From assembly GCF_003402975.1 (NCBI RefSeq), contig NZ_QURB01000002.1, positions 1 through 64,000 on the forward strand: a stretch of 64,000 nucleotides of DNA, written 5' to 3'. A program made the translations under genes and the position numbers. The notes under the pieces are model-generated. The model was not told the origin of the DNA, searched no databases, and saw only the letters and a list, made by a program, of their open reading frames with translations. Of this stretch, positions 6,307 through 60,958 are shown one piece after another. Source of the DNA: Brumimicrobium aurantiacum. GTDB taxonomy: Bacteria > Bacteroidota > Bacteroidia > Flavobacteriales_D > Crocinitomicaceae. Each line of letters opens with the position of its first letter. The first letter of the stretch is position 1.

Positions 6307-6338
6307 TTTGTTTGTTTATTTAAAGTTTATTATCTTTG
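6307..6338 (+). promoter_or_regulatory. Candidate rightward Bacteroidota promoter
   Basis: TTTG at 6307-6310 and TATCTTTG at 6331-6338 are 20 bases apart, matching the TTTG / TAnnTTTG consensus. It points right, against the flanking leftward genes, toward a hairpin with a T-tract 40 bases on. Confidence 0.5.
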
Positions 6339-6342
6339 TCTT

Positions 6343-6410
6343 AAAGGCCAAGGGATATGTACGACGTGTAAGCTATAAAAAGCCATTGCGGTAATCCTGA
6401 GGCTTTTTTT
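6343..6410 (+). ncRNA. Candidate small RNA of about 68 nt
   Basis: A consensus promoter (6307-6338) predicts a start near 6342-6345. The only thing downstream before a GCC...GGC hairpin with a run of seven T (6377-6410) is about 40 bases without an open frame. The transcript would be antisense to the last residues and stop of the gene at 6373-6801, so it could act on that message or as a free regulator. This is inference from signal spacing only; no known RNA family is recognised. Confidence 0.35.
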
Positions 6411-43673: not shown

Positions 43674-44582
43674 GTGAAAAAAAACATTTTAGTCATATAT
43701 TACTCTCAAACTGGACAGTTAAAAGATATTGTTTATAATTTGTTACAACCATTTGAAAGAGAGGATGATTTTAATGTAGATTACTATAATATTTGTCCTG
43801 AAAAACCATATGAATTTCCATGGAGTAATTCCGCTTTTTTTGATGTCTTTCCAGAATCCTTTCAACAAATTCCAACAGCTATTAAAGCACCGAATCAAGA
43901 TTTTTTAAGACAAGAATATGACTTAGTAATTTTAGCTTATCAAATCTGGTTTTTAACTCCATCAATTCCCATTAATTCATTTTTGAAAAGTGAGTATGCT
44001 TCACAAATTTTGAATGGAAGGAAAGTTGTAACTGTTATTGGGTGTAGAAATATGTGGGCTAAATCTCAGGAGAAAATGAGAAAGTTGATTGCTGAAGCTA
44101 AAGGGGAACTCGTTGGAAATGTTGCTTTTGTTGATCGTCACCTAAACCATATTAGTGTAATAACAATTGTGCATTGGATGATGGGAGGTAAGAAGAACCG
44201 TAAATTTGGAGTTTTTCCCAAACCAGGTGTTTCAGATGAAGACATAGATAATGCTTCACAATTTGGTGAGCTAATATTGTCATCCAGTAAATCCAATGAC
44301 TATACCACTTTACAAAAATCAATTATTGAAAAAGGAGGTGTGAATATCAAGTCATTTGTTATTTTAATGGATGAAAAAGCCAATAAAATGTTTAATATTT
44401 GGTCTAAGTTTGTTTTAAAGAATAAACAAAGTCGAAGGCTTAAGTTAAAATTTTTTAAAGTGTATTTAATCATTGCTATTTGGGTGTTGTCACCGATAGT
44501 CTATGTATTATTTCTAGTTACTTACTTATTTAGAATAAAGAGAATAAACGAGAAAAAAGTTTATTACTCAAAAGCAAATTAG
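43674..44582 (+). CDS. darA: DarA, flavodoxin-fold enzyme of dialkylresorcinol formation
   Basis: The 302-residue product starts at GTG and has an N-terminal flavodoxin-like pattern (ILVIYYSQTGQLKDIV, the FMN phosphate loop), then VVTVIGCRNMWAKSQEKMRKL and a C-terminal pair of hydrophobic helices (about 262-290). DarA works with DarB to make dialkylresorcinols; DarB forms a cyclohexanedione and DarA aromatises it. The gene lies 10 bases before darB, as in other flexirubin clusters. The C-terminal anchor suggests a membrane-associated enzyme. Confidence 0.8.
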   Translation: MKKNILVIYYSQTGQLKDIVYNLLQPFEREDDFNVDYYNICPEKPYEFPWSNSAFFDVFPESFQQIPTAIKAPNQDFLRQEYDLVILAYQIWFLTPSIPINSFLKSEYASQILNGRKVVTVIGCRNMWAKSQEKMRKLIAEAKGELVGNVAFVDRHLNHISVITIVHWMMGGKKNRKFGVFPKPGVSDEDIDNASQFGELILSSSKSNDYTTLQKSIIEKGGVNIKSFVILMDEKANKMFNIWSKFVLKNKQSRRLKLKFFKVYLIIAIWVLSPIVYVLFLVTYLFRIKRINEKKVYYSKAN

Positions 44583-44592: not shown

Positions 44593-45732
44593 ATGAGCGA
44601 AGTATATATAACTAAAGCCTCTAAATATTTGCCTAACTCCCCAATATCCAATGATGAAATGGGAGAAGTTTTAGGTTTCTTTAATGGTTCGGAACGTGTT
44701 AAGAACATTGTTTTACGAAATAATGGAATACTTAATCGTTACTATGCAATTGATAAGAGTAAGAATATAACACATTCTAATGCGGAATTAACATACAAAG
44801 CAATTAAAGGGCTTTTAGATTCCGAATTTAAAATTGAAGATATTGAATTACTGTCTGTAGGAACTTCAACACCAGATCAACAGTTGCCTTCACATGCTGC
44901 CATGGTGCACGGTTTGATGAAAGGAAGTAATAGACTTGAAATTAACTCTGCTTCTGGTATTTGTACTTCTGGAATGAATGCTTTGAAATATGCATTCATG
45001 GCTATTAAATCTGGAATGGTGAATAATGCGGTTGCAGGTGGGAGTGAAAGGGTTTCTCCAATGCTATCATTGGGAAATTTTAATTATGAAATGGATACCG
45101 CTGCAAAAATTGAAGAAAACCCCGTTTTGGCTTTTGAAAAGGAGTTTCTTAGATGGATGCTATCTGATGGTTCGGGAACATTTTTATTGCAAAATAAACC
45201 CGATCCTCGCAATGAAGTTAACCTGAAAATAGAATGGATGGACGGACAATCATTTGCATCGGAGTTAGAAACATGTATGTATTCAGGAGCGGAAAAAGCT
45301 GAGAATGGTGATTTGATTTCATGGATGAACTTTTCATCGTCTGAATGGGCAGAACGTTCTATTTTTTCAATACGTCAAGATATTAAACTATTGGACGAAC
45401 AAATTATCAAGAACGGTGTTGAGAGCTTAAAGAATGTGCTGAATCGTCATGAATTTGAAGCTAGTGAAATAGATTATTTTCTACCTCATATTTCTTCTTT
45501 TTTCTTTAAAGAAAAATTAATGGAAGGTATAAGAGCAGAAGGATTAGATATTCCAGATGATAAATTATTTATTAACTTGGATCAAATTGGAAATGTTGGT
45601 TCAGCTTCAATTTATTTAATGTTGGAGGAATTAATGTATAGTAAACGTCTTGTAAAAGGAGATAAAATACTATTGTCTGTGCCAGAAAGCGGTCGATTCA
45701 ATTATGCGTATGCATTAATTTCTGTAGAGTAA
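44593..45732 (+). CDS. darB: DarB, ketosynthase of dialkylresorcinol formation (KAS III-like)
   Basis: The 379-residue product has the KAS III-type triad: Cys in INSASGICTSGMNAL (Cys near 124), His in FLPHISSFF (near 299) and Asn in QIGNVGSAS (near 334). DarB condenses two acyl precursors to a 1,3-cyclohexanedione that DarA turns into the resorcinol ring of flexirubins. It follows darA directly and starts a run of acyl-chain genes. All three catalytic residues are present. Confidence 0.85.
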   Translation: MSEVYITKASKYLPNSPISNDEMGEVLGFFNGSERVKNIVLRNNGILNRYYAIDKSKNITHSNAELTYKAIKGLLDSEFKIEDIELLSVGTSTPDQQLPSHAAMVHGLMKGSNRLEINSASGICTSGMNALKYAFMAIKSGMVNNAVAGGSERVSPMLSLGNFNYEMDTAAKIEENPVLAFEKEFLRWMLSDGSGTFLLQNKPDPRNEVNLKIEWMDGQSFASELETCMYSGAEKAENGDLISWMNFSSSEWAERSIFSIRQDIKLLDEQIIKNGVESLKNVLNRHEFEASEIDYFLPHISSFFFKEKLMEGIRAEGLDIPDDKLFINLDQIGNVGSASIYLMLEELMYSKRLVKGDKILLSVPESGRFNYAYALISVE

Positions 45733-46210: not shown

Positions 46211-46651
46211 ATGAAACTACCTATGAGTATAAGAGAGTACCTTCCTCATCGTGAACCAATGTTAATGGTTGACACTATAGTTCGACTGGATTCTCAATTC
46301 ATAGAAACAACTTTTCAGATTAAGGATAGTAATATTTTTTTGGAGAATGAATATTTAAATGAGATCGGGATTATTGAAAATGCCGCACAAACTTCATCAG
46401 GAATTGTAGGCTGTCCTCATTTTGAATCAAATAAACATAAGGAAGGATATAAAATTCAGGGTTATATTTCAACAATAAAAAGTGTCAAAATACACAGTTT
46501 ACCACCTAAAAATTCAATTTTACAAACCAAAGGAGAGCTTTTAGGTATACATTCAATTGATGACATTTATAATTGTAATATGAAAAGTGAAACTTTCATT
46601 GATGATGAATTAGTCGCTCAATGTTTTTTCAATTTGATAATTAAAGCTTAA
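46211..46651 (+). CDS. FabZ-like 3-hydroxyacyl-ACP dehydratase
   Basis: The 146-residue product has the intact FabZ pair: His in YLPHREPMLMVD (about 10-21) and Glu in EIGIIENAAQTSSG. It should remove water from 3-hydroxyacyl-ACP during polyene chain extension. It is the active partner of the hotdog gene just upstream. The -7-like box TATCTTTG ends four bases before the ATG, as in bamD. Confidence 0.78.
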   Translation: MKLPMSIREYLPHREPMLMVDTIVRLDSQFIETTFQIKDSNIFLENEYLNEIGIIENAAQTSSGIVGCPHFESNKHKEGYKIQGYISTIKSVKIHSLPPKNSILQTKGELLGIHSIDDIYNCNMKSETFIDDELVAQCFFNLIIKA

Positions 46652-46702: not shown

Positions 46703-47104
46703 ATGAGAAAAGATGATATTCCGCAAGATGACAGTAAGCTCTCTGATAAAAACATGAAAGAGTTGTGTTATGCTGTTGATAAAAATGGTAATTATACAAC
46801 TGGATTAAGTACAGGGTGGGAGGCAAAATCAATTGCTTTAGATTTAACGATAAAAAATTTAGACCAACAAATCGAAGAAGCCAAAAACGAAGTGCTTAAG
46901 GGTCAAAAAAGTCCAATTTACTATTTCATGATTCGTGAAAAAATGGATATTGGAATATTAGCTGGATATATGAGCAGACCAAAATGGATTATTAAAAGAC
47001 ATTTTAAGCCTCATGTTTTTGAAAAATTAAAAATATCTACCGTTAAAAAGTATGCAGATATCTTTTCGGTTGATGAAACTAAACTGACAAAATTTAATGA
47101 GTAA
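46703..47104 (+). CDS. Unknown protein, possible HTH, in the pigment cluster
   Basis: The 133-residue product is soluble and helical. Its C-terminal half (KMDIGILAGYMSRPKWIIKRH... KKYADIFSVDETKL) has the spacing of an XRE-like helix-turn-helix, but the N-terminal half has no known domain. It overlaps the BtrH-like gene by eight bases. A regulator of the cluster, or a scaffold for the neighbouring enzyme, is possible. Recognised only as a conserved-looking member of the cluster. Confidence 0.45.
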   Translation: MRKDDIPQDDSKLSDKNMKELCYAVDKNGNYTTGLSTGWEAKSIALDLTIKNLDQQIEEAKNEVLKGQKSPIYYFMIREKMDIGILAGYMSRPKWIIKRHFKPHVFEKLKISTVKKYADIFSVDETKLTKFNE

Positions 47105-48095
47105 TATTGATTTTTACCATCACCAATCAGCTCATTGTGAGAATGGTGTTGCTTCTAACATCTTTAAATTTAATGGCTTTGACCTTTCTGAACCGATGGT
47201 TTTCGGAATAGGATCAGGACTTTTTTATATTTACATTCCATTTTTAAAGGTAAATCAAGCGCCTGCAATTAGTTACCGTCCAATGCCAGGATTTATATTT
47301 TCAAGGGCCTCAAAACAATTAAATGTAAAAATAAAACGTGAACGATTTTCAAATGTCGATAAATCATTTGATGCTTTGGATCGTAATTTAGACAATGGAA
47401 TTGCCAGTGGTTTGCAAGTAGGTGTTTATCATTTACCTTATTTTCCAGATGAGTATAGATTTCATTTTAACGCCCATAATTTAGTTGTTTTCGGTAAACA
47501 GGGGAATGAGTATCTCATTAGTGATCCTGTTATGGAGACAACAACTACCTTAACGCGCAGTGAATTAGAAAAAGTTCGTTTTGCCAAAGGTGTATTTGCT
47601 CCAAAAGGTCATATGTATTACCCAGTTCAGTTTCCTAAAGAAATGGAGTTGGAATCAGCAATAATTAATGGGTTAAAGAAGACCTGTAAAGATATGCTTG
47701 CACCCGTTCCTTTTGTAGGTGCGAACGGTATAAAATATGTTGCAAAAAAAATACCCTATTGGGCCAATAAAGTAGGTACTAAAAAAACCAATCATTATTT
47801 GGCTCAAATTATTAGAATGCAAGAGGAAATAGGAACAGGAGGAGGAGGATTTAGATTTGTTTTCGCTGCTTTTCTTCAAGAAATAGCATCAATAATGAAT
47901 CGGTCTGAATGGCTTGAATTATCTCATAGAATGACGGCAATTGGCGATGACTGGAGAGATTTTGCATTAAAAGCTTCACGGATTTGTAAATCAAGAGATA
48001 ATGATGAAAATGCATATCAAAATATTTCTTCATTAATGCTAGAAATTTCAAAAAGTGAAAAGCAGTTTTTTAAGGATTTAAAAAAATCGATATAG
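47097..48095 (+). CDS. BtrH-like acyltransferase candidate
   Basis: The 332-residue product starts with the BtrH N-terminal pattern (SAHCENGVASNIF; Cys near 14) and has a possible His in NAHNLVVFG (about 127) and Asp in ISDPV (about 143), suggesting a Cys-His-Asp site. The C-terminal half (about 175-330) is helical. BtrH moves an acyl group from a carrier protein to an alcohol or amine in butirosin synthesis. In a flexirubin cluster it could esterify the aryl polyene from ACP to the dialkylresorcinol. That job is inference; the fold call is by pattern. Confidence 0.6.
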   Translation: MSNIDFYHHQSAHCENGVASNIFKFNGFDLSEPMVFGIGSGLFYIYIPFLKVNQAPAISYRPMPGFIFSRASKQLNVKIKRERFSNVDKSFDALDRNLDNGIASGLQVGVYHLPYFPDEYRFHFNAHNLVVFGKQGNEYLISDPVMETTTTLTRSELEKVRFAKGVFAPKGHMYYPVQFPKEMELESAIINGLKKTCKDMLAPVPFVGANGIKYVAKKIPYWANKVGTKKTNHYLAQIIRMQEEIGTGGGGFRFVFAAFLQEIASIMNRSEWLELSHRMTAIGDDWRDFALKASRICKSRDNDENAYQNISSLMLEISKSEKQFFKDLKKSI

Positions 48096-48099: not shown

Positions 48100-48840
48100 A
48101 TGAGTTATAGTATTGAGATAGATCAGCTAAGTTTAAGTTATAAAAACACCGATTTTAAGGCAATTAATAATTTAAGTTTAAAGGTAAAAAGAAATGAAGT
48201 GTTAGGTTTATTAGGGCCTAATGGAGCTGGAAAAACCACTTTAATTTCAATGCTAACAGGTTTACAAAGACCGGATAAAGGAAAAATTTTCATTGAAGGT
48301 TTGGAGACTTCAGCAAACATTCATGAGATTCAAAAAATTTTAGGAGTAGTACCCCAAGAATATGCATTGTATCCTAAATTAACAGCCAAAGAAAACCTTC
48401 AGTTCTTTGGAAGTATGTATGGTGTTGATAGGAAAATATTAAAGAAAAGAATCGATGAGGGAATCGAAAAGATGGGGCTCTCAAAGTTTTCCAACAAAAG
48501 AATTGATACTTTTTCTGGGGGAATGAAGAGAAGAATTAATTTGCTGGCGGGTGTATTACATGAACCGAAGTTAATTTTTCTTGATGAACCGACAGTAGGA
48601 GTGGATGTCCAATCTAAGCACGTAATTATTGAATTTTTAACTTCCTTGAATCAGGCTGGTACAACGATTGTTTACAGCTCACATTTGCTGCATGAAGCTC
48701 AGTCATTTTGTTCGCGAGTTGCAATTATAGACCATGGAGAAATTCAAGTAGAAGGAGCAACAAAAGATATTTTAGTAAGTGAAGGTAGGGTGAAGTCTTT
48801 GGAGGAGATATTTATTGAGAACACAAGTAATTCAAAGTAG
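48100..48840 (+). CDS. ABC transporter ATP-binding protein
   Basis: The 246-residue product has Walker A GPNGAGKTTL (about 39-48), signature FSGGMKRRINLLAG (about 139-152), Walker B LIFLDEPTVGVD (about 157-168) and the His-loop SSHLLHEA. It energises the permease encoded four bases downstream (ABC-2 type). In this cluster the pair probably moves pigment precursors or lipid across the inner membrane. Confidence 0.9.
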   Translation: MSYSIEIDQLSLSYKNTDFKAINNLSLKVKRNEVLGLLGPNGAGKTTLISMLTGLQRPDKGKIFIEGLETSANIHEIQKILGVVPQEYALYPKLTAKENLQFFGSMYGVDRKILKKRIDEGIEKMGLSKFSNKRIDTFSGGMKRRINLLAGVLHEPKLIFLDEPTVGVDVQSKHVIIEFLTSLNQAGTTIVYSSHLLHEAQSFCSRVAIIDHGEIQVEGATKDILVSEGRVKSLEEIFIENTSNSK

Positions 48841-48843: not shown

Positions 48844-50124
48844 ATGAGTAAAGTTTTTAATGCTATTATAAAAGAATTGCGATTATTGCGTAAGGATCTC
48901 CTTGGTTTTGCAATTATTTTTCTAATGCCGGTAGTGCTAATAATTACCATTACATTTATTCAAAATAGTGTAGAAAATAATTCGAACAATGTCAAGTTGC
49001 CTATATTAATTGTAAATAATGATGAAGGTGAATTATCAAAAAAAATCATCAATAAACTTGTAGATGAGAACAATCTTAAACTTGTTACAGAATATAAAGG
49101 CAAAGCTTTAACCGAAGATACTGGAAGAAATTTAATAAAGTCAGGAGTTCAAAAGATATTAATTGTTATACCCAGTGACTTTTCTAATTATATTCATCAG
49201 CAAACAGATTATCATGTGAGTCAATTGTTGGCCGAAGTGATGCCTAATCCTTCCCAGTCTTCTCAAGTAGAAAAATCAACATCATCATTAAAAGAAGTTC
49301 AAATTCACTTTGATCCTGCGATAAGCAATAGCATTAAGTTGGATATTAAAAGAGCGATGGAAGGAATGGTGTCAGACCTTGAAGCAAAAGCACTTTATGA
49401 TACATTTGAAGAAGAATTTGAGGCGGATTTAAGTTTTTTAACCGAACAACAGTTAATTTCTTTTAAAGAAATTTCAGTTTCTATTCTTGATAAAAACTTG
49501 ACTCCAACACCTGTTCAGCACAATCTTCCTGCTTGGACTTTATTTGCCATATTTTTTATTATTCTTCCTTTGTCTATCAATATCGTAAAGGAGAAAAATC
49601 AAGGTACATTTATTCGATTACAGGCTTTACCAGTTTCGTCATTAACATTAATGACGAGTAAAATTATCGTTTACTTATTGGTTTGTATGGTTCAGTTTTA
49701 TCTTATGCTTTTGGTGAGTATTTTCCTCTTTCCAGTTTTAGGATTGCCAGCATTGATCGTTGAAGGTAAATTGATAGGATTAACTGTAATGGCCTTATTT
49801 TCGAGTTTAGCAGCAATCGGATATGGAGTTTTAATTGGAACTTTTGCCAAAACCCATGAACAAGCTGCACCATTTGGAGCAACTTCAGTTGTAATCTTAG
49901 CGGCCATTGGAGGACTTTGGTTTCCTGTTTTTGCAATGCCAGAAACAATGCGGATGATTGCTAAGGTTTCACCAATGAACTGGGGATTAGAGGGGTTTTA
50001 TAACGTTTTACTTCGTGATGCAAATTTTATTTCCCTTGCACCATACTTGTCGCTACTATTGGTATTCTTTATAATTAACATTACTATTGCAGTTATATAT
50101 GAGAAAAAGATCAACCAATTATAA
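48844..50124 (+). CDS. ABC-2 type transporter permease
   Basis: The 426-residue product has one N-terminal membrane segment (about 21-41), a large soluble region (about 45-225), then five C-terminal segments (about 230-250, 270-300, 310-330, 345-365, 400-420), the ABC2-type arrangement. The soluble domain is typical of the YhgE/ABC-2 N-terminal region. It overlaps the thioesterase gene start by 38 bases, depending on the start chosen. Confidence 0.85.
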   Translation: MSKVFNAIIKELRLLRKDLLGFAIIFLMPVVLIITITFIQNSVENNSNNVKLPILIVNNDEGELSKKIINKLVDENNLKLVTEYKGKALTEDTGRNLIKSGVQKILIVIPSDFSNYIHQQTDYHVSQLLAEVMPNPSQSSQVEKSTSSLKEVQIHFDPAISNSIKLDIKRAMEGMVSDLEAKALYDTFEEEFEADLSFLTEQQLISFKEISVSILDKNLTPTPVQHNLPAWTLFAIFFIILPLSINIVKEKNQGTFIRLQALPVSSLTLMTSKIIVYLLVCMVQFYLMLLVSIFLFPVLGLPALIVEGKLIGLTVMALFSSLAAIGYGVLIGTFAKTHEQAAPFGATSVVILAAIGGLWFPVFAMPETMRMIAKVSPMNWGLEGFYNVLLRDANFISLAPYLSLLLVFFIINITIAVIYEKKINQL

Positions 50125-50548
50125 AAAAATAGATCATTTAACAACAACGTTTTCTGCTCGTGTAAAGTTTAATGAAGCTGATCCTCTGGGAATCGTATGG
50201 CATGGAAATTATGTTTCCTATTTTGAAGAAGGAAGAGAGGCCTTTGGAAGAGAACATGGAATCACCTATTTAGATATCAATAATCATGGCTTTAGTATTC
50301 CTATCGTTAGAATGGAGTGCGATAATAAGTTTCCTTTGAAATATGGCGATACTTATACCATCAAAACACATGTGCTAGATTGTCCAGCTGCAAAAATTAT
50401 TCATACTTATGAAATTTATAATCAAGATGGCGTGCTCGCATGTGAAGGGAAAACAATACAAGTTTTTGTAAATAAAGAAGGAGCCTTGTCATTGACATTG
50501 CCTAAGTTTTACGAAGAGTGGAAAAATAAAGTTAATTTTAAATCATGA
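50087..50548 (+). CDS. 4HBT-family acyl thioesterase
   Basis: The product (153 residues from the first ATG; a start at 50099 is equally possible) has the hotdog thioesterase motif FNEADPLGIVWHGNYVSYFEEGREAFGR, with the catalytic Asp and the HGNYVSYFE block, then PLKYGDTYTI. It would release or edit acyl chains on ACP or CoA in the pigment pathway. Both starts lie inside the upstream permease gene. Confidence 0.78.
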   Translation: MQLYMRKRSTNYKKIDHLTTTFSARVKFNEADPLGIVWHGNYVSYFEEGREAFGREHGITYLDINNHGFSIPIVRMECDNKFPLKYGDTYTIKTHVLDCPAAKIIHTYEIYNQDGVLACEGKTIQVFVNKEGALSLTLPKFYEEWKNKVNFKS

Positions 50549-51711
50549 GTGCTTCGTCAAATAAGATATCTGTTTATGTATCGAGAGGTAATTGTTTAAG
50601 CCCTATGGGTATTGATGTTACTGAAAATATGAACGGTTTAATACAAGGAGAAATTGGAATTTCAAAAATCGTTGATCAAAAGCTGCAAGAGGATTCTTTT
50701 TATGGTGCAATTGTAGATAAAAATAGACTCCATACTTCATTTCAAGAACTCAATTACGTAGGAGAGTATAGTGATCTTGAAAAAATGATGCTCATCACAG
50801 TAGATAAAATAAAATCAGAATTTAAAGTACTTTTTAAAGATGATTGTGGACTCATTATTTCGACCACAAAAGGCAATATAGATGAATTATCATCAGAAGT
50901 TGATGAAGAAAATTATGCATTATATGGTTTAGCCAACAAGATAAAAAATACAATAGGTATAGCAACAGAACCTATTGTATTGTCAAACGCTTGTGTTTCT
51001 GGGGTTATGGCTATATCGGTTGCTAAAAGATTAATTCAATCTGGGAGCTACAAACATTTCGTAATTATTGGAGCTGATGTGTTTTCTAAATTTGTGTTTA
51101 GTGGTTTTCAATCATTTCAAGCGATAAGTAATCAACCTTGTAAGCCCTACGATAAGAGTAGAGATGGAATAACATTAGGAGAGGCAGCTGCAGCAATTTT
51201 TGTTACAAAAAATAAAAGTTTGATCGATAACCAACCTTTTTATGAGCTGATCGGTGATAGTTCAATAAATGATGCTAATCACATTTCTGGTCCGTCTAGA
51301 ACAGGTGAAGGGTTGTTTAAAAGTATCTCAAATGCTATTAAGGAAGCGGAGACGGATAAAATTGATATGATATCTTCCCATGGTACAGCTACCAATTATA
51401 ATGACGAAATGGAAGCTCAAGCTTTCAATAGGGCATCACTCCAAGATGTTCCGTTATTCAGTTTGAAATCTTGTTTTGGACATACATTAGGAGCCGCTGG
51501 ATTATTAGAGACTGTGATTGCTTTAAATTTTTCAACACGCAATATGATTCCTCCATCGATAGGGTATGAAGAACACGGTGTTACATTGCCGTTGAACGTT
51601 TCAAAATCCTTTCAACAAAAGGAAATAAATGTGATTTTAAAAACAGCATCTGGCTTTGGAGGAAGTAATACAGCCGTTTTATTTAGAAAAGGAAAATCGA
51701 ATGAAAAATAA
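50545..51711 (+). CDS. Beta-ketoacyl-ACP synthase (KAS II type)
   Basis: The 388-residue product has the active-site Cys in VLSNACVSGVMAI (near 150), His in SSHGTATNYND (near 279) and His in FGHTLGAAG (near 313): a Cys-His-His set, so it is active. It extends acyl chains by two carbons. It is followed by a half-length ketosynthase-like gene, possibly its chain-length partner, and by an ACP. It overlaps that next gene by 11 bases. Confidence 0.85.
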   Translation: MSASSNKISVYVSRGNCLSPMGIDVTENMNGLIQGEIGISKIVDQKLQEDSFYGAIVDKNRLHTSFQELNYVGEYSDLEKMMLITVDKIKSEFKVLFKDDCGLIISTTKGNIDELSSEVDEENYALYGLANKIKNTIGIATEPIVLSNACVSGVMAISVAKRLIQSGSYKHFVIIGADVFSKFVFSGFQSFQAISNQPCKPYDKSRDGITLGEAAAAIFVTKNKSLIDNQPFYELIGDSSINDANHISGPSRTGEGLFKSISNAIKEAETDKIDMISSHGTATNYNDEMEAQAFNRASLQDVPLFSLKSCFGHTLGAAGLLETVIALNFSTRNMIPPSIGYEEHGVTLPLNVSKSFQQKEINVILKTASGFGGSNTAVLFRKGKSNEK

Positions 51712-52303
51712 CATTATTCATTATTGTAATATAAAAGATGGTTCAGTCTCTGTAAATGGAAAATCACTTTATGTAAATACCGTAGAGAAAGATTTTTTGT
51801 CGTTTATCAAAACCGTTTATAAGCAATTTGATTTAGCATATCCAAAGTTTTATAAAATGGATCCTTTGTGTAAGTTATCTATAGTAGCAGCCAGTATTTT
51901 GTTAGAAAATACAGGTTCAGAAATAGATCCAAATATGGCTTTGGTATTGTCCAATAAATCTTCATGTATCGATATAGATAGAAAGCATCAAGAAACAATT
52001 TCTCAAGAAGCGGATAGTTACGCCAGTCCAGCAAATTTCGTTTATACACTACCTAATATAGCGCTTGGTGAAATAAGCATAAAATATAAGCTTCAAAGTG
52101 AGAATTCTTTTTTTATCTTTGAGTACTTTAACCCAAAGTTTTTAATCGATTATACCAATAGTTTGATTGATTTAGGTAAATCAAATCGTGTTTTGTCAGG
52201 ATGGGTCGAAGTAAATGAGAATAATTACAACGCCTTCTTGTTTATAGTGGAAAAATCAGATGGTATTGAATTAACACAAAAGAATCTAATAAAATTGAAA
52301 TAA
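51701..52303 (+). CDS. Half-length ketosynthase-like protein without active Cys
   Basis: The start is placed at 51701 (ATG 11 bases before the upstream stop). The 200-residue product corresponds to the N-terminal half of a ketosynthase (KMDPLCKLSIVAASILLENTG, SPANFVYTLPNIALGEISIKY), but the expected Cys region is replaced by SFFIFEYFNP and the whole C-terminal half is absent. It is intact from start to stop, so it looks like a true short partner rather than decay. It may act as a partner of the preceding ketosynthase. Function is inferred. Confidence 0.6.
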   Translation: MKNNIIHYCNIKDGSVSVNGKSLYVNTVEKDFLSFIKTVYKQFDLAYPKFYKMDPLCKLSIVAASILLENTGSEIDPNMALVLSNKSSCIDIDRKHQETISQEADSYASPANFVYTLPNIALGEISIKYKLQSENSFFIFEYFNPKFLIDYTNSLIDLGKSNRVLSGWVEVNENNYNAFLFIVEKSDGIELTQKNLIKLK

Positions 52304-52311
52304 ATAATAAA

Positions 52312-52569
52312 ATGGAAGATTTAAAGAAGGAATTGAAATTGAAAATTATCGAGGCCCTAAACCTTGAAGATATGTCAGTAGAAGATATTAGTGATGATGA
52401 AATGCTTTTTGAAGAAGGTCTAGGTCTTGATTCAATTGATGCATTAGAGTTGATAATCATCCTTGATAAAGATTACGGAATTAAATTAACGGATTCAAAA
52501 GACGGGAAAAAGATATTTAGGTCAATTGAAACGATGGCCACTTATATTGCTGAACACAGAAGTAAATAA
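52312..52569 (+). CDS. Acyl carrier protein
   Basis: The 85-residue product has the ACP motif LGLDSIDALELI (Ser near 41, the phosphopantetheine attachment), between acidic helices, and the final helix TMATYIAEH. It carries the growing polyene chain; the transferase at 43021 would charge it. It lies 8 bases after the short ketosynthase-like gene and 5 before the next ketosynthase. Confidence 0.9.
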   Translation: MEDLKKELKLKIIEALNLEDMSVEDISDDEMLFEEGLGLDSIDALELIIILDKDYGIKLTDSKDGKKIFRSIETMATYIAEHRSK

Positions 52570-52574
52570 GTAGA

Positions 52575-53768
52575 ATGGATAGAGGTGTTGCCATATCTGG
52601 AATGGGGATTGTTTCTGCAATTGGAATGAATGCCAAAGAAAATTTTGAAGCCCTTAAAAAAGGCCAACATGGAATTTCAGAAGTTGAACTTGTCGATACA
52701 ATTTTAAAGGAAAATATTCTTGTTGGAGAAATAAAGAAGTCAAATCAAGAATTAGAGCAAATTTTAAAACTACCAACTCCAAATAGTTTTTCGCGTTCTT
52801 CTATGTTGGGAATGATAGCCATTAAAGAGGCCTTTCGCGACGCTGAGATTCAAGTAAAAGACAATACATCAATGGCTTTCGTAAATTCAACGACTGTTGG
52901 AGGTATGGATATGGTAGAAAAGTTCTATGATAGTTTTTTAACTGACAAAAAAAATCAACATTATATCAGTGTCAATGATGCGGGAAGTAATACTCATTTA
53001 ATGGCTGATTACTTTAATATTAAAGGATTTGTAACTACAATAAGTACTGCGTGTTCTTCTGCAGCTAATGCAATTATGTTAGGAGCAAGATTGATTAAAA
53101 GCGGTAGAGCAGAAAAGGTGGTTGTTGGCGGAATGGATGGACTTTGTAAGTTTACGCTAAATGGCTTTAATACACTTATGTTGCAATCAAATGGTTTCAA
53201 TAAGCCTTTTGATGATGAAAGAGTTGGTTTAAACTTGGGAGAAGGCGCCGCCTATTTAATATTAGAATCTCAATCATCACTTCAAAAACGAGATAAAACG
53301 CCGTTGGCTTATTTAACAGGGTATGCCAATGCGAATGATGCATATCATCAAACAGCGTCTTCTGAACAAGGTGAAGGAGCATTTTTAGCGATGAAAAAAG
53401 CATTTGAGGTAGCAGGAATTCAACCAGAACAGGTTGATTATATCAATGCGCATGGAACAGCCACTCCAAATAATGACCTTTCTGAAGGTCGTGCCTTATT
53501 GAATTTCTTTGAAAACAAGATACCTGATTTTAGTTCAACAAAACCTTTTACTGGACATACTTTAGCTGCAGCAGCATCTATTGAAGCTGTATTCAGTATT
53601 TTAGCACTGCGAGAAAATATAATTTATCCTAATTTGAATTTTAAAACTAAAATGAAAGAATTTGATTTAACCCCTCAAATTGAAATTAAAAAGAAAGAAG
53701 TGAATACCGTACTTTCGAATTCCTTTGGGTTTGGTGGAAATTGTTCTAGTTTAATTTTCGAGAAATAA
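52575..53768 (+). CDS. Beta-ketoacyl-ACP synthase (ApeO-like)
   Basis: The 397-residue product has Cys in TISTACSSAANAI (near 160), His in NAHGTATPNND (near 293) and His in FTGHTLAAAAS (near 328), so it is an active ketosynthase. With the degenerate gene just downstream (53797) it forms a ketosynthase / chain-length factor pair, as described for aryl polyene clusters (ApeO with ApeC). Its position next to the ACP supports polyene chain extension. Confidence 0.85.
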   Translation: MDRGVAISGMGIVSAIGMNAKENFEALKKGQHGISEVELVDTILKENILVGEIKKSNQELEQILKLPTPNSFSRSSMLGMIAIKEAFRDAEIQVKDNTSMAFVNSTTVGGMDMVEKFYDSFLTDKKNQHYISVNDAGSNTHLMADYFNIKGFVTTISTACSSAANAIMLGARLIKSGRAEKVVVGGMDGLCKFTLNGFNTLMLQSNGFNKPFDDERVGLNLGEGAAYLILESQSSLQKRDKTPLAYLTGYANANDAYHQTASSEQGEGAFLAMKKAFEVAGIQPEQVDYINAHGTATPNNDLSEGRALLNFFENKIPDFSSTKPFTGHTLAAAASIEAVFSILALRENIIYPNLNFKTKMKEFDLTPQIEIKKKEVNTVLSNSFGFGGNCSSLIFEK

Positions 53769-53796
53769 TTTAGTTAATCATTATAATTGCATCAAC

Positions 53797-54864
53797 ATGA
53801 ATAGTTGTTTTATTAATGGAATAGGTTGTGTTTCGGCACAAAATACCTTTGAAAATACATTTTTTGAAGATGCTATTGACATCTCTAATTTGAACATTGT
53901 AAAAGCAATTAAACCCAATTACAAATCTTTTATTCCACCGGCATCAATTCGAAGAATGAGTGCGGGAGTAAAAAATAGTATTGTAGCCTCTTCAGTAGCT
54001 ATAAAAGAAGCTTCTGCTGATCAATTAGATGGAATTATTGTTGGAACAGGATTGGGGTGTATTCAAGATTCTGAAAACTTCTTAAATAAGATGATTGGAT
54101 ACAATGAGGAGTATTTAACCCCAACCGCTTTTATTCAATCGACTCATAATACTGTGAGTGGACAAATTGCTTTAAAGTTAAAATGTAAGGCCTATAACTT
54201 TACTTATGTTAATACTGGAGGTTCCTTTCAATCTGCATTGATTGATGGATTATTAATGTTTGAAGGGGAAGAAGCAAACAATATTTTAATTGGTGGAGTA
54301 GATGAACATGCAGAATACACCAATAAATTGTATCAGGCAATTGGATATTACAGACAAGATGAGGAGGGGAAAAAAAATATTCTTAAACAAAGAAAATCAG
54401 GTGTTATTCCTGGTGAAGGAGCGTCTTATTTTGTTTTAGGAAATGAACAATCAGATTCCACCTATGCTAAAATATTAGATGTTCAGTTGGTAAATAAGCT
54501 TGATCAAATAGATTTACCTTCTTTTATTTTAGATTTCTTATCCAAAAATGAATTGAAGTTAGATGAAATTGATGTGGTCATCTTAGGTAATAATGGAGAT
54601 GATGAATTTGATACATATTATGATGAAGCATCATCTATTTTTGAATCTTCAACTCTACTGTATTACAAACATTTATTCGGTGAGTTTTTAACTTCATCTT
54701 CTGTGGCTACCTATATCGCTGCTAAGATACTTAGAGAACAAGTTATCCCTGAACATTTATTAGGAGAGCAAAAAGTGCGTAAATCTGATAAAATTGGAAA
54801 CATTCTTATCTACAATCAATATAGAGGGAAGGACCATAGTTTAATTTTAATGGAAGATGTCTAA
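53797..54864 (+). CDS. Chain-length-factor-like ketosynthase homologue without catalytic triad
   Basis: The 355-residue product is a full-length ketosynthase fold, but the Cys site reads TYVNTGGSFQSAL (Gly in place of Cys near 141), the HGT motif reads LGNNGDD, and the second His motif reads FGEFLTSSS. So it cannot condense by itself and is likely the partner (CLF) of the active ketosynthase encoded just upstream. It overlaps the deacetylase gene by eight bases. Confidence 0.75.
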   Translation: MNSCFINGIGCVSAQNTFENTFFEDAIDISNLNIVKAIKPNYKSFIPPASIRRMSAGVKNSIVASSVAIKEASADQLDGIIVGTGLGCIQDSENFLNKMIGYNEEYLTPTAFIQSTHNTVSGQIALKLKCKAYNFTYVNTGGSFQSALIDGLLMFEGEEANNILIGGVDEHAEYTNKLYQAIGYYRQDEEGKKNILKQRKSGVIPGEGASYFVLGNEQSDSTYAKILDVQLVNKLDQIDLPSFILDFLSKNELKLDEIDVVILGNNGDDEFDTYYDEASSIFESSTLLYYKHLFGEFLTSSSVATYIAAKILREQVIPEHLLGEQKVRKSDKIGNILIYNQYRGKDHSLILMEDV

Positions 54865-55624
54865 ACATCAAATTGGATATACTATTTTTGGTGTTTTCAC
54901 ACTATTTTATGTTTATGGATACATCGTGAATGGATGGTCTGTCATATATTATGTTAGCTTTTTTGTACTGTGGTTTGTAATGGTGTTGTATGGTTCGTTT
55001 TTCATCCGTTCCAATTATCATTTAAAGGCTATTTCAAGTGTGAAAACAGATGAAAGAGTTGTTTCAATAACCTTTGATGATGGACCAACAGTTCATACAA
55101 ACGCTGTTTTAGATATACTTAAAAAAGGAGGGCATAAAGCAAGCTTCTTTTGTATTGGTCAAAGAATACAGGAAAATCCTTTAATGGCAGAAAGAATTGT
55201 TAAAGAGGGCCATTCTATAGAAAACCATACTTATTCTCATTCTAAACATATAAGTTTTGCAAGCACGAAAAAATTGATTGAAGAGATTGAAAAAACAGAT
55301 GAAATAATAAAAAGACAAACTGGTGTTAAACCTCAATTTTTTCGACCACCGTATGGAGTAACAAATCCCAATTTTATGCGTACGATTAGGCAATCTAAAC
55401 ATGTGGTTATTGGTTGGAATATTAGGTCTTTAGACACTGTTATAGAAAGTGAAGATAAAATATTAAAGCGTATTACTAAATTGGTTAAAAATGGAAGTAT
55501 AATCTTGCTTCATGATACTTCTGAAAAATCTATTATTGTTTTGGAGCGTTTATTGCAATACCTTAACGACAACAATTATCGCAGTGTTACAGTGGATGAA
55601 TTATTAAAATTAAGAAAGAAATGA
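54857..55624 (+). CDS. Polysaccharide deacetylase (NodB-type) with N-terminal membrane segments
   Basis: The 255-residue product has two hydrophobic segments (about 7-27 and 32-52) and then the NodB domain: ITFDDGPT (Asp-Asp, about 72-79), HTYSHSKH (metal His pair, about 124-131), FFRPPYG and ILLHDTSE. It removes acyl groups from sugars or a similar substrate near the membrane. It is coupled to its neighbours by eight- and four-base overlaps. Its substrate in this cluster is unknown. Confidence 0.82.
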   Translation: MSKHQIGYTIFGVFTLFYVYGYIVNGWSVIYYVSFFVLWFVMVLYGSFFIRSNYHLKAISSVKTDERVVSITFDDGPTVHTNAVLDILKKGGHKASFFCIGQRIQENPLMAERIVKEGHSIENHTYSHSKHISFASTKKLIEEIEKTDEIIKRQTGVKPQFFRPPYGVTNPNFMRTIRQSKHVVIGWNIRSLDTVIESEDKILKRITKLVKNGSIILLHDTSEKSIIVLERLLQYLNDNNYRSVTVDELLKLRKK

Positions 55625-56241
55625 AACCAGTATTGCTCTTATTTATTTTTATTAGCCTCAATATTTATGCTCAAGAAGTTCCATTAACAGAAACTGAATT
55701 AAAAGCGTTTACAACACGTATTGAAACGGAAACGAAAAAATTAACTTCCCTTACCACTGACTTTGAGCAACAAAAACATTTGGCTTTTCTATCTAATGAT
55801 ATACAATCTTATGGTAAAATGTTTTTAAGGGCTGATGGTGCTTTGAAATGGTCTTATACAGAACCGAATAAATACAGTGTGATATTTAAGAATAATGCCA
55901 TTTATATTAATGATAATGGTAAAAAAAGCACTGTTAGTGGAGATCAAGATATGTTTAAAAAGATAAACCATCTTATTGCTGGAAGTGTAAGTGGTAAATT
56001 ATTTAATGACAATGATTTTTCTATTCGTTATTTCAAAGTGGATAATGAAATCAAAGTGAAATTGATTCCAGATAATAAAACCTTAAAAAAATATCTAACA
56101 GAAGTACATCTCTATTTTCCACAAAATGAAGCCCTTGTTTCAAAAGTGAAGTTGATTGAACCTTCAGGAGATTATACCTTGATTTTATTTAAAAATAAAA
56201 AGCTAAATGTTAAAATTGATCCAAATATTTTTAAGCATTAG
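55621..56241 (+). CDS. LolA-like periplasmic carrier protein
   Basis: The 206-residue product has a signal peptide (about 1-18) and the LolA pattern: LTSLTTDFEQQKHLAFLSNDIQSYGKMFLRADGALKWSY (about 40-80) and VHLYFPQNEALVSKVKLIEPSGDYT near the end. LolA carries lipoproteins through the periplasm; in pigment clusters such proteins may carry the lipid-like product. It overlaps the downstream lipoprotein gene by 35 bases. Confidence 0.8.
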   Translation: MKPVLLLFIFISLNIYAQEVPLTETELKAFTTRIETETKKLTSLTTDFEQQKHLAFLSNDIQSYGKMFLRADGALKWSYTEPNKYSVIFKNNAIYINDNGKKSTVSGDQDMFKKINHLIAGSVSGKLFNDNDFSIRYFKVDNEIKVKLIPDNKTLKKYLTEVHLYFPQNEALVSKVKLIEPSGDYTLILFKNKKLNVKIDPNIFKH

Positions 56242-56818
56242 TTTATTGATTTTAACCTCCTGCACTCATTATAAGCCAATAGGAGAGAAGGTTGCCAACG
56301 AAAAATCAATTTATTCCTCTCCTTATTTTAATGAGATTGATGGTGAGTTTTTGTTTGATGCTAAAATGCAAGTTTTCGGGAATGATTTGAACGGAATTTT
56401 AGTGATTAAAACAATAGATGAAAACAAGAAAAGATTAGCGCTCATATCTGATTTTGGAAATACCTTACTCGATTTTGAGTTTGTTAACGATGAGGTCAAT
56501 GTGATTTATATTATGGATGATCTAAATAAAAAACTAGTCATCCAAATGCTTGAAAATTACTTTCAACTTATAATACATCCTTCTTTTACCATAAAAAAAA
56601 CATACCTTGCTGAAGAAGGAAAAACTTATATTTCTAAATTACAAGGAAAGCGCATATTTTTGTATGTGAATAAGGAAGATCAGTTGGTGTATTTAAAGCA
56701 GTCTTCTATTTTTAGAGATAAAGTTGGAGTCTATTTTTATGCAAAATCAACCCAAATAGAGACGATACAATTTGAATCATTTGAACTGCCTATCAAAATA
56801 AATCTTATCAAACGTTAA
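56207..56818 (+). CDS. Lipoprotein of the pigment cluster (LolB-like role possible)
   Basis: The 203-residue product has a signal with lipobox LTSC (Cys near 18) and a beta-rich body (DGEFLFDAKMQVFGNDLNGILVI, LLDFEFVNDEVNVIYIMD) resembling LolB-type half-barrels. It overlaps the LolA-like gene by 35 bases, giving a carrier/receptor pair. It likely sits on the outer membrane and receives cargo from the LolA-like protein; inference from the pairing. Confidence 0.6.
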   Translation: MLKLIQIFLSISLLILTSCTHYKPIGEKVANEKSIYSSPYFNEIDGEFLFDAKMQVFGNDLNGILVIKTIDENKKRLALISDFGNTLLDFEFVNDEVNVIYIMDDLNKKLVIQMLENYFQLIIHPSFTIKKTYLAEEGKTYISKLQGKRIFLYVNKEDQLVYLKQSSIFRDKVGVYFYAKSTQIETIQFESFELPIKINLIKR

Positions 56819-56866
56819 TCACTTTCAATGTTCGCTAATTATGTCTAAATGAATGCATTTTAATGC

Positions 56867-56874
56867 TATATTTG
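56867..56874 (+). promoter_or_regulatory. Candidate -7 box of the methyltransferase gene
   Basis: TATATTTG, 39 bases before the ATG at 56914, without a clear TTG at the right distance. Confidence 0.4.
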
Positions 56875-56913
56875 TATAGAAACCTTGCATTATCAATATT
56901 CTACAAATAGAAA

Positions 56914-57996
56914 ATGACAAAACCTATCGAACGTACTACGCTTTTTAATACAGATAATAAAAAAGCAATTGAAGCTCTAAATCTCGCACATTTAATTTCT
57001 TTTGCACCATATGTTTGGGAAGCCTCTAGCTTATTGAAGGAAAAACAAATTTTAGATATTATCGAAAACTCTGATGGCTCTACAATTGAAGAAATCGTTT
57101 CTTTAGTTGATATTTCTCATTATGGAGTGCGTATACTTTTAGAAGCAGGACTTGGAATAGGTTTAGTCTATTTGGATGACGGTAAATACTGCCTAACCAA
57201 AGCGGGATATTTCTTTTTAAATGACAAAACTGTGGTAACAAACTTCAATTTTATGAAAGATGTTTGTTATGAAGGTGCAAATTCTTTAAAAGATAGTATT
57301 GAAAATTCAAATCCTGAAGGATTAAAAGTTTTTGGAGAATGGGAACACATTTACGAAGGACTACCGGTTTTGCCTCCTAAAGCGAAGAAAAGCTGGTTTG
57401 AATTTGATCACTATTATTCTGACATTACCTTTGATGAACTTTTGCCAATTGTCTTTAATCACCAACCAAAAAAAGTTATGGATATTGGTGCAAACACTGG
57501 GAAATGGACTTTGAAGTGTTTGGAATACGATGAGAATGTTGAAGTAGGCTTGGTTGATTTAGGCGTACAATTAAATGTTGCGAAACAAAATATTGATAAA
57601 TCAAATTTTGGAGATAGAGTTTCTTATCATGAGATGGATATTCGCTTATCTGAAAGTAAATTACCGGAAGGTTGTGATATTATTTGGATGAGTCAATTCT
57701 TAGATTGTTTCTCTGACGAACAAATTGTTTCCATTCTTAAGAAATGCCATGAGGTGGCTGATGAAAATACAACTGTATTTATTAATGAAACATTTTGGGA
57801 TTTACAAGATTTCGAAATTTCTGCTTTTGCCTTACAAATGACATCATTATACTTTACAACAATGGCGAATGGGTGTAGTCAAATGTATGACAGTAAGGTA
57901 TTTTTTGAATTAATTGATCAAGCAGGATTCAAAGTAGTTGAACAATACAACATGAAAGGTATTGCACATACATTGATAGGATTAAAAAAGAAATAA
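56914..57996 (+). CDS. SAM-dependent methyltransferase with N-terminal winged helix
   Basis: The 360-residue product has a helical/winged dimerisation region (about 15-110, with HYGVRILLEAGLGIGLVYLDDGKYCLT) and a Rossmann domain with MDIGANTGKWTL (about 189-200) and SFGDRVSYHEMDIR. This is the plan of O- and C-methyltransferases such as those acting on aromatic pigments. In flexirubin, a ring methyl on the aryl part is the likely product. Its stop lies five bases before the convergent ligase gene. Confidence 0.8.
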   Translation: MTKPIERTTLFNTDNKKAIEALNLAHLISFAPYVWEASSLLKEKQILDIIENSDGSTIEEIVSLVDISHYGVRILLEAGLGIGLVYLDDGKYCLTKAGYFFLNDKTVVTNFNFMKDVCYEGANSLKDSIENSNPEGLKVFGEWEHIYEGLPVLPPKAKKSWFEFDHYYSDITFDELLPIVFNHQPKKVMDIGANTGKWTLKCLEYDENVEVGLVDLGVQLNVAKQNIDKSNFGDRVSYHEMDIRLSESKLPEGCDIIWMSQFLDCFSDEQIVSILKKCHEVADENTTVFINETFWDLQDFEISAFALQMTSLYFTTMANGCSQMYDSKVFFELIDQAGFKVVEQYNMKGIAHTLIGLKKK

Positions 57997-58001: not shown

Positions 58002-59291
58002 TTACTTTCTTTTATCAATCACCCATTTTGGTTTTCTTGAATTATTCGATAATACCAATTTGTTTAATTCATCAGAAGCTATTAATTCAATATTTGGAAT
58101 GACCCTAAGTTTTGCTTGGAATTTTTCTTTTAAATTCTGTATTAATTCATTTGAAAATAATTGAGAAACAATCTTTACAGTCACTTCATCTGTTCCAATA
58201 TCATTGGTGTGTAAAATGATGAGATGACTCTCAATTTCCTTAAAAGCATTTAAAATGTCATGTATCGCTGGAGGATATAAAGTGGTCCCTTTAAATTTCA
58301 CCATTTGTTGTGCTCTACCTAAAACAGGACCGACTCTATTGGTGTTTCGACCACATGGACATGACGTGTAGTCAATTTTTACAATATCTCCAGTTTTAAA
58401 TCGAACGAGAGGTAATGCTTTGACCCCGAGTGTGGTAATCGTTAATTCTCCCACTTCTCCAGGTTTAACAGGTTTATTTTCTTCGTCTAACACTTCAGTG
58501 ATGATCAATTCTGGATGAGCATGTCCACCTTGATGAAATTCACATTCAGTGAATGCAGTACTCATTTCTGTAGAGGCATAAGTCGAATACAGTTTAATAT
58601 CCCATTTAGCATTTATTCTTTTAGCTAATTCAGATGGTGAAAAATCTTGATTTCGTAATGGTTCTCCAATGCAAATTGCAGCTTTCACACTACAATTGTT
58701 GATGTCAATATTGTTCTTTTCAGCATAAACTATCATTTTGAGTAAAAATGAAGGAACAGCAATAAGATAGGTGGGTTTATTTAATAGAATGGAATTCCAT
58801 TGTAAAGCGGGTACTCCTGCACCTGTTCTGATTATTCCTGCACCAATTTTTCTAATCCCTAAAAAATAAGCCAGACCAGCCATAAATTGGCGATCCATTG
58901 TTGTCATTAATTGAACTATATCATGTTTTTGAATTCCTGCACAAGAAAATGATTGCGCTTCATTAAAAGCTAGTCGATTAAGGTCTTCTTCAGTTAGTCC
59001 AAAATTTACAGGAGCTCCGGTTGTTCCGGAAGTATTCGAAAAATCAATTATTTCAACTGGGTCTACACAGAAGAAATCCTCATTATTTTCTTGTAGATCA
59101 GTTTTAGTTGTAACAGGAAGTTGAGTTAAATCATCTATTGTTTTTACCGATTGAATATCGATTCCTGCTTTTTTGAAATGATTCTGATAGAAAAGAGAAT
59201 TTGCTTGAACATAGGCCAATTGTATAATTAATTTTTGATTTTGAAAATGCTTTATTTCTTGCGCACTTTGCTTTTCTATTTGAGATATCAT
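58002..59291 (-). CDS. Phenylacetate-CoA ligase-like aryl activating enzyme
   Basis: The 429-residue product is an AMP-forming ligase: P-loop DFSNTSGTTGAPVNF (about 84-98), TYASTEMSTAF (about 237-247) and the RFKTGDIVKIDYTSCPCGR block (about 299-317) with two Cys, as in phenylacetate-CoA ligases. It would activate an aryl acid (such as a coumarate) as CoA or ACP ester to start the aryl polyene. It overlaps the upstream gene by four bases. Confidence 0.82.
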   Translation of the reverse strand: MISQIEKQSAQEIKHFQNQKLIIQLAYVQANSLFYQNHFKKAGIDIQSVKTIDDLTQLPVTTKTDLQENNEDFFCVDPVEIIDFSNTSGTTGAPVNFGLTEEDLNRLAFNEAQSFSCAGIQKHDIVQLMTTMDRQFMAGLAYFLGIRKIGAGIIRTGAGVPALQWNSILLNKPTYLIAVPSFLLKMIVYAEKNNIDINNCSVKAAICIGEPLRNQDFSPSELAKRINAKWDIKLYSTYASTEMSTAFTECEFHQGGHAHPELIITEVLDEENKPVKPGEVGELTITTLGVKALPLVRFKTGDIVKIDYTSCPCGRNTNRVGPVLGRAQQMVKFKGTTLYPPAIHDILNAFKEIESHLIILHTNDIGTDEVTVKIVSQLFSNELIQNLKEKFQAKLRVIPNIELIASDELNKLVLSNNSRKPKWVIDKRK

Positions 59292-60958
59292 TTTAATTTT
59301 TTATTCGTTTTTTTTAGTATTTTTTCAATTTGCTCAACGGCTGGTACTGTCGTTACTTCTTTGCTTAATGCTGTTTCAAAAGCAGATTTTGCTTGCTCAT
59401 ATTTTTCTGCATTATAGTATATTAAACCAGATTTGTAATGTACAATCCATAGCTCTGGATTGAGGGTTCTATAAATATTGAGTTGCATTAAATCAAAACT
59501 TTGGTCTTCTGAAGATATCACCTCGTCAATTTTTCTATCCATCACTCGGTACGCTTCATAATCCTCAAAAGCCTTAGTGTATTGGAAGTCATCTTCGGGT
59601 ATTGTTAAAGAATCTATTAACTGTGATTTATATACATTTTGCTTGTTGTCGTTGAAGATTTCATCTAAATCGTAAGACGTAAACTCACCAAGTTGATAGG
59701 GATTAGATGATATCCAAATCTTTTTCTCAGAAGGTTTGAAAATTACTGCATGATGCGCCAATAGTTGATTTAAGGCTTTCTCATTACCAAAGCCGAGCTT
59801 TTCATCATTTTCTCCATATTTATTTCTTAAAATACTGGCCATTGTTGTAGGATCAACTTTTGGATATTCATCCAATAGCTCATTCATTCTCTCAAATCTA
59901 TATTGTGAGTGACTTTCTTCTATGGCTTTGTTGTTGCGTTTATCATCTTTATAGGCTTCACTTTGAAAGTGATTTGAACATACCAAACGTGAATTTACAA
60001 TCTCATATACACCAAAATTTTTAGGTGACATTTCTATAACTACTGCTTTATTATCATTTGCCGAACCAATCATTAAAGCTTCTGAAACGAAAACCTCACT
60101 ATTTTTTGCGATTGCTATGGCTTCGTCAATGGTGGAAGCATATTGTAAAATCTCTCTAGCTAATATTGAAATAGGTTTCTTTGCTTTTAAGGGAATTTTA
60201 GATTTACCCGCATTCATGGTAATTGTTAAGCCTTCTTTATTCATTCCAGAAATTACTCCTAGCATTCCTGGCCATCCAATGGATACAAAAGGAATACCGT
60301 CATCAGGATCGATAAATAGGATTAATTTTTCTTCAGCAAATTCATCACCAGCATAAAAGTCTAGGTTTCTCCCTATCAACAATTCTCCGTCTTCAGTTTC
60401 ATCATCCCAAAGAGCTGCAGAAGTACATCCAATCATTGCTAAATCAACGAGAGCATGACCGATATCATGTGCTCCATGAAGATATAAACTTCTTATATAT
60501 GGAGGTGCGATGTAGTTGTAAGTATCAGGAACATATCTTGACAATCCATAAATTTCTGCTTTGAATTCGTTCGGGACATGTTTATAAAGTTCTCTATTGT
60601 ACCATTGAAGAAATTTGGTGAGTCGTTTTTGCTTTTTCTTAGAGGGAACGAACTCTTCTATTTTATTAAAAAAGATAGGTTCTTGTTTGGCAAGAAGAGA
60701 ATCCATTAAAGCCCCTGCAAGCAACCCTCTTTCTAACGGGTCCCCTTGAATATATAATTCCCATTGAGCGTATTTATTTTTCGTAAGATAACTCTCACCA
60801 GAGATAAATAAACTATCATGTTGCTTAATAACAACAGGTCTTTCATCATTGAATTGAGTTAAATCTGGACGATGTACCACAGATTTTTTCATTCCACAGG
60901 AAAATGTAAGAAGTGAAAGGAAAACGACTGTATAACTTAACTTATTCATTGATCTCAC
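59288..60958 (-). CDS. C45-family lipoprotein acyltransferase/hydrolase with TPR
   Basis: The 556-residue product has lipobox TFSC (Cys near 21) and the C45/Ntn-hydrolase start MIGCTSAALWDD (Cys near 178, which becomes N-terminal after self-cleavage), then ELLIGRNLDFY and SIGWPGMLGVISGMNKEGLTITMNAG. It ends with a TPR-like repeat (about 510-545). Family members form or cut amide or ester bonds with acyl groups. In this cluster it could form or hydrolyse the aryl polyene-resorcinol ester at the outer membrane or periplasm; this is inference. It overlaps the desaturase gene by 17 bases. Confidence 0.75.
   Translation of the reverse strand: MRSMNKLSYTVVFLSLLTFSCGMKKSVVHRPDLTQFNDERPVVIKQHDSLFISGESYLTKNKYAQWELYIQGDPLERGLLAGALMDSLLAKQEPIFFNKIEEFVPSKKKQKRLTKFLQWYNRELYKHVPNEFKAEIYGLSRYVPDTYNYIAPPYIRSLYLHGAHDIGHALVDLAMIGCTSAALWDDETEDGELLIGRNLDFYAGDEFAEEKLILFIDPDDGIPFVSIGWPGMLGVISGMNKEGLTITMNAGKSKIPLKAKKPISILAREILQYASTIDEAIAIAKNSEVFVSEALMIGSANDNKAVVIEMSPKNFGVYEIVNSRLVCSNHFQSEAYKDDKRNNKAIEESHSQYRFERMNELLDEYPKVDPTTMASILRNKYGENDEKLGFGNEKALNQLLAHHAVIFKPSEKKIWISSNPYQLGEFTSYDLDEIFNDNKQNVYKSQLIDSLTIPEDDFQYTKAFEDYEAYRVMDRKIDEVISSEDQSFDLMQLNIYRTLNPELWIVHYKSGLIYYNAEKYEQAKSAFETALSKEVTTVPAVEQIEKILKKTNKKLK

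Follow-up and report, generated by a model that had tools for sequence, protein, structure and literature searches.

We found that darH, a gene in the first 64,000 nucleotides of contig NZ_QURB01000002.1 of Brumimicrobium aurantiacum (hereafter the window), is likely to encode the enzyme that forms the flexirubin ester, by transfer of the acyl chain from polyene-ACP through Cys14 to the phenol of the resorcinol. Flexirubin is the orange pigment classically used in the chemotaxonomy of Bacteroidota. A sequence-only reading of the window had already put this gene forward as the best positional candidate for this step. The proposal is unproven, and three independent computational lines support it: an invariant triad together with the fold of carrier-dependent acyltransferases, presence of the gene only where both halves of the pigment are encoded, and the occurrence pattern of a C45-family gene in the same cluster. 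Our search of the open literature (most subscription journals were outside its scope) found no enzyme assay, darH knockout or other experiment on the ester step, and we therefore infer, rather than report, the chemistry of DarH (its acyl-cysteine intermediate, its donor on ACP and its phenolic acceptor), as well as what DarG does. New here are the exclusion of C45, the structural class of DarH and its invariable partner gene, darG. The genome pattern narrows the choice for the ester step to one gene, which can be tested in the genetically tractable Flavobacterium johnsoniae. If the role is confirmed, the class of carrier-dependent cysteine acyltransferases would extend from amide to phenol-ester formation, and such phenol-ester formation by DarH may help to make hybrid polyene esters.

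Gene organization and family assignment

The dar and aryl-polyene genes are held by the window (Table 1) and the next approximately 15 kb, where the remaining polyene genes (FlxA tyrosine ammonia-lyase, FlxB, a ketosynthase and an ACP) were found; the window thus represents a flexirubin cluster. As the sequence-only reading had described, darH lies between the resorcinol genes and the exporter, with DarA and DarB upstream and the ABC ATPase and permease downstream. The open reading frame in the ORF list agreed exactly with the one claimed earlier (ATG start, 332 amino acids), and the three residues that had been named are indeed found at positions 14, 127 and 143 of the protein. The observed gene and its arrangement are confirmed well past chance.

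Table 1. Features of the flexirubin cluster in the window.
Feature	Position	Strand	Basis
DarA, flavodoxin-fold dialkylresorcinol aromatase	43674..44582	+	domain matches; genome set identical to that of DarH
DarB, dialkylresorcinol ketosynthase/cyclase	44593..45732	+	NF053539 resorcinol_DarB, 570 bits (cut-off 550)
Two FabZ-like dehydratase-fold ORFs	45747-46175, 46211-46651	+	weak FabZ matches
DarG, 133-aa partner gene, 8-base overlap with darH start	46703..47104	+	NCBIfam, neighbourhood, model
DarH, BtrH_N + DUF4872 protein, predicted cytosolic Cys14-His127-Asp143 acyltransferase	47097..48095	+	ORF, Pfam, NCBIfam, alignment, model
ABC exporter ATPase, in resorcinol-specific six-gene module	48100-48840	+	Pfam, NCBIfam, gene table
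ABC exporter permease, in resorcinol-specific six-gene module	48844-50124	+	Pfam, NCBIfam, gene table
Polyene (flx) genes: 4HBT thioesterase, ketosynthases, chain-length-factor-like protein, polysaccharide deacetylase, LolA2, LolB2, FlxJ-family methyltransferase	50087..57996	+	Pfam, NCBIfam
FlxY, 4-coumarate:CoA ligase (pathway start)	58002..59291	-	NF053551, 681 bits (cut-off 520)
C45-family autoproteolytic acyltransferase/hydrolase with lipoprotein signal, rival candidate	59288..60958	-	matches, distribution, signals

In Pfam searches, BtrH_N (PF14399) covered residues 13-144 of DarH (E 1.9e-47; 161.3 bits against a gathering score of 29.7) and DUF4872 (PF16169) residues 156-328 (E 7.8e-59; 198.7 bits against 28). 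The NCBIfam model NF053550, "BtrH-related acyltransferase DarH", was matched over positions 1-325 of its 325 with 496.6 bits (cut-off 300). The window gene is an ordinary member of this family, with no difference from it and with the identical operon place after darG, and its nearest named relatives are from Brumimicrobium and Fluviicola. The family assignment therefore existed already, NCBIfam calling DarH an acyltransferase, and for the window's protein this annotation denotes a predicted activity. What we propose is a functional assignment within a named family and thus not a new kind of system.

Catalytic triad and structural class of DarH

Alignment showed that Cys14, His127 and Asp143 are invariant in all 23 DarH and DarH-like sequences (23/23). 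They were also invariant in a set of 12 sequences that spans Streptomyces, Haladaptatus and Acinetobacter proteins and Bacteroidota paralogues and reaches BtrH-like proteins at 24-28% identity. His13, Glu32 and a GTGG..FR motif at 246-253 were conserved to the same degree in both alignments. In the regions inspected, the plasmid BtrH-like genes (Acinetobacter, Haladaptatus, Streptomyces) lay outside pigment clusters; they were used only as triad outgroups.

The AlphaFold2 model of DarH (pLDDT 90.4, pTM 0.88) consists of a papain-like N-terminal domain followed by a helical domain; Cys14 opens a helix, His127 opens a strand and Asp143 comes directly after the next strand. Sequence search of the PDB with the single protein gave no convincing solved relative, and profile searches gave weak partial matches only, some of them to designed helical bundles, so that a fold search was needed. 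The top matches (Foldseek, VIA-align 2) were CtaG (Z 25), AziU3 (Z 24) and CcbD (Z 22), and matches to these three proteins span both domains, about 292-305 residues, at Z 20-25. C39 peptidases, phytochelatin synthase and other papain-like enzymes scored lower (Z about 10-14) and matched mainly the N-terminal domain. The deposited CtaG crystal variants C11A, H128A and D144N fall on Cys14, His127 and Asp143 of DarH. The full-length two-domain fold of the model is that of the carrier-protein-dependent papain-like cysteine acyltransferases (the CtaG/CcbD class). The modelled fold and the triad favour acyl transfer from a carrier protein, and they do not name the substrate.

BtrH, the ACP:aminoglycoside acyltransferase of butirosin biosynthesis, has the BtrH_N domain in common with DarH, which would point to a carrier-protein acyl donor; it acylates an aminoglycoside amine, whereas for DarH the predicted acceptor is a phenol and the predicted acyl group a long aryl polyene. 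CtaG, from the closthioamide pathway, has the same two-domain fold at 12-13% identity, with Cys11, His128 and Asp144 corresponding to the DarH triad, but its proposed reaction is an N-acylation, in which 4-hydroxybenzoyl is moved from one carrier protein to a peptide, tri-beta-alanine, bound to another (PMC6772006). In the lincosamide condensing enzymes CcbD and LmbD, which share the fold at about 10% identity, the catalytic cysteine first takes up a carrier-bound acyl group and then delivers it to the acceptor, in a ping-pong mechanism (PMC12945683). CcbD has been solved with its carrier protein; these enzymes differ from DarH in a triad reported as Cys-His-Glu and in forming an amide with an amino sugar. 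We found no report of phenol acylation by the BtrH/CtaG/CcbD class, in which the characterized relatives form amides and AziU3 other bonds. The chemistry of AziU3, of azinomycin biosynthesis, is aziridine formation, unlike the ester formation predicted for DarH.

A BtrH-like gene is also present in the cluster for arcuflavin, another proposed resorcinol-polyene ester, from Azoarcus sp. BH72. According to its gene-table description, darE of this dar cluster encodes a "BtrH-like peptidase", BtrH-like as DarH is, and has the hypothetical gene darD and a gene for an ABC ATPase as neighbours; in the cluster description of the arcuflavin work, darE carries no role in the ester step (PMC3949708).

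Divergent BtrH-like genes outside pigment clusters were observed at L149 9444-10424, L148 ~6330-7300, L164 9138-10103, L165 9479-10318 and L157 5968-6939. Some of these are on Acinetobacter plasmids, beside two PaaI thioesterases, and the triad is kept in those that were aligned.

Occurrence of DarH, DarA and polyene genes

Of 247 Bacteroidota genomes, 18 contain DarH above cut-off and 19 contain DarB; FlxA passed its cut-off in 20, and 19 have the C45 protein of the window. In a sample of 244 Flavobacteriales genomes, the 59 with DarH above cut-off were exactly the 59 with DarA. FlxA was found in these 59 genomes plus G118 and G364, and C45 in the same 59 minus G395, plus G118, G364 and G266. 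When both samples were merged, 65 genomes had FlxA; DarH was present in 62/62 of those with DarA and in 0/3 of those without (Fisher p 2.3e-5, which ignores relatedness and treats counts that are not independent), and C45 was present in 60/62 and 3/3, respectively. Extensive polyene clusters with C45, and without darA, darG and darH, were found in G118, G238 and G364, while G099 and G395 have darA, darB, darG, darH, the ABC pair and polyene genes and are missing C45. No genome with DarA but without the polyene pathway was found in the Bacteroidota genomes searched. The published gene table of the E. coli aryl polyene (ape) cluster, which is without resorcinol genes, includes lysophospholipid-acyltransferase-like genes and has no BtrH gene (PMC8253772). 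G266, with C45 in a partial polyene cluster on a short contig and neither DarA nor DarH, was excluded from the counts, FlxA not being found in this draft.

When three polyene-only clusters were tabulated gene by gene against eight resorcinol-plus-polyene clusters, six genes exactly separated the two types: darA, darB, darG, darH and the two ABC genes. Several regions in this table were 20 kb slices, and other absences in the resorcinol-plus-polyene group mean little. Elimination among the six genes is the strongest argument for DarH. It has been reported that, in a heterologous host, darA and darB alone suffice for the flexirubin resorcinol (PMC3992019), so that DarH is not needed for the resorcinol half; since DarA and DarB account for the resorcinol and DarH is the only acyl-transfer enzyme among the remaining four genes, it is the candidate for the ester step. 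Co-distribution of DarH and DarA alone would also fit another step needed only with both halves, for example ester export, and cannot separate the two.

In one genome, G300 (L166 3970-6018), darA and darB seem to be split by frameshifts, and darG, darH and the polyene genes look intact. Either the assembly is in error here, or the resorcinol branch was lost recently.

DarG, an invariable partner of DarH

The order darG-darH-ABC ATPase-ABC permease was found in 80/80 named loci, and all loci examined, including those of genomes with a scattered pathway, have darG adjoining darH. For example, nine of the 24 genomes in the family of G017, from 9 genera, have DarH, each with darG ahead of it (9/9). 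The pair was found without darAB or these ABC genes beside it in G017, G471 and G462, and without the ABC genes beside it in G480, so that darG-darH forms a unit independent of the exporter.

The model of DarG (pTM 0.68) combines a hairpin and a helix with a lambda-repressor-like helix-turn-helix domain (residues 70-133), for which fold matches reached Z 10 over about 62 residues. Most probably, DarG assists DarH as an accessory subunit or regulates it; it may also be a docking protein. AziU3, which shares the fold of DarH, was solved with a second protein, AziU2, recalling DarH with DarG and offering a possible parallel. AziU2 was not among the fold matches listed for DarG, although the two may still be related. 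We suggest only tentatively that DarG and DarH form an obligatory two-protein O-acyltransferase, in which a small helix-turn-helix-fold protein and a BtrH-type cysteine enzyme would together esterify a phenol with an ACP-bound polyene.

Proposed mechanism and alternative explanations

In the proposed mechanism, DarH would be a cytosolic, carrier-protein-dependent cysteine O-acyltransferase that links both halves of flexirubin. With His127 and Asp143 activating it, Cys14 would accept the finished aryl-polyene acyl chain from the ACP thioester, the phenolic hydroxyl of the dialkylresorcinol made by DarA and DarB would attack the acyl-enzyme to give the ester pigment, and the pigment would then be exported. 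It appears improbable that the ester is made by another acyl-transfer enzyme, such as C45, a lysophospholipid-acyltransferase-like (LPLAT) cluster protein or FlxW. C45, which the sequence-only reading had named as the alternative, is encoded in the same cluster as darH; a "ligase-like enzyme FlxW" was proposed in 2014, without a test (PMC3992019); and in E. coli, the acyltransferases ApeD and ApeJ have been proposed to join the polyene to a lipid anchor (PMC8253772). However, homologues of C45, LPLAT, the MMPL-acyltransferase, the thioesterase and FlxY all occur in the polyene-only clusters of G118, G238 and G364. Besides, C45 is missing from two DarH-containing flexirubin-type genomes (G099 and G395) and does not appear in the gene-table part of the arcuflavin report (PMC3949708). 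Location also argues against it: wherever a complete N-terminus of a C45 homologue was examined, it had either a lipobox-type signal or one membrane anchor (a lipobox-like LYSCG in L163 was missed by the strict pattern, the match in L166 was partial, and for L137, L145 and L159 the anchor was assigned by eye), whereas DarH has no export signal and begins directly with its catalytic domain. These signals suggest that C45 probably acts outside the cytoplasm, away from the ACP-bound polyene, in a step that is probably common to polyenes with and without resorcinol.

A role of DarH in export, as a peptidase of C39 type or another processing partner for the ABC exporter encoded next to it, would be in line with the classification of BtrH_N near C39 peptidases (PMC10318531), with the constant position of darH ahead of the ABC genes and with the membership of these genes in the same resorcinol-specific module. 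We consider it quite unlikely, since C39 domains match only residues ~5-180 of DarH (Z 14) and the CtaG, AziU3 and CcbD matches extend over the whole protein (Z 22-25), since DarH is free-standing, has its own helical C-terminal domain and is not fused to an ABC exporter as the C39 reading calls for, and since four genomes have the darG-darH pair without such ABC genes beside it. The perfect tracking of DarA by DarH across the 244 Flavobacteriales genomes would also suit a function within the resorcinol branch, such as acyl loading or release for DarB. This is very doubtful in view of the resorcinol obtained from darA and darB alone; only this published heterologous expression excludes it, and orphan darB genes without darH argue in the same direction. 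Finally, papain-like cysteine enzymes can hydrolyse acyl-enzyme intermediates, and DarH could then be a thioesterase that frees the polyene acid, with the ester made elsewhere. That reading is extremely improbable: polyene-only clusters without DarH still keep a 4HBT thioesterase, so that DarH is dispensable for polyene release, and the structural relatives of DarH are transferases or bond-forming enzymes.

G238 and orphan DarB genes

G238, which has FlxA, DarB and C45 and no DarH, was considered as a counterexample and rejected, as it has neither DarA nor DarG. Its darB gene is preceded by a regulator gene, which was placed in the TetR family by eye from its sequence, and groups with plasmid TetR-darB pairs of Bacteroides, Phocaeicola and Prevotella, apart from flexirubin DarB, with support of 100/99. 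A control genome, Bacteroides ihuae, matched FlxA and the broad DarB family and did not match DarH. Both G238 and B. ihuae are best read as non-makers of the resorcinol ester.

The two-gene unit of a TetR-type regulator and a StlD/DarB-like ketosynthase was observed at L131 13425-15150, L132 17355-19125, L134 12764-14489 and L136 9521-11252, that is, on Bacteroides, Prevotella and Phocaeicola plasmids and in G238, with no darA or darH. In addition, contig 12 of G182 (L154 9160 onward) carries a second DarB-like gene, in a genome that also has a full flexirubin cluster, and this second gene groups with Pseudoalteromonas and Streptomyces homologues.
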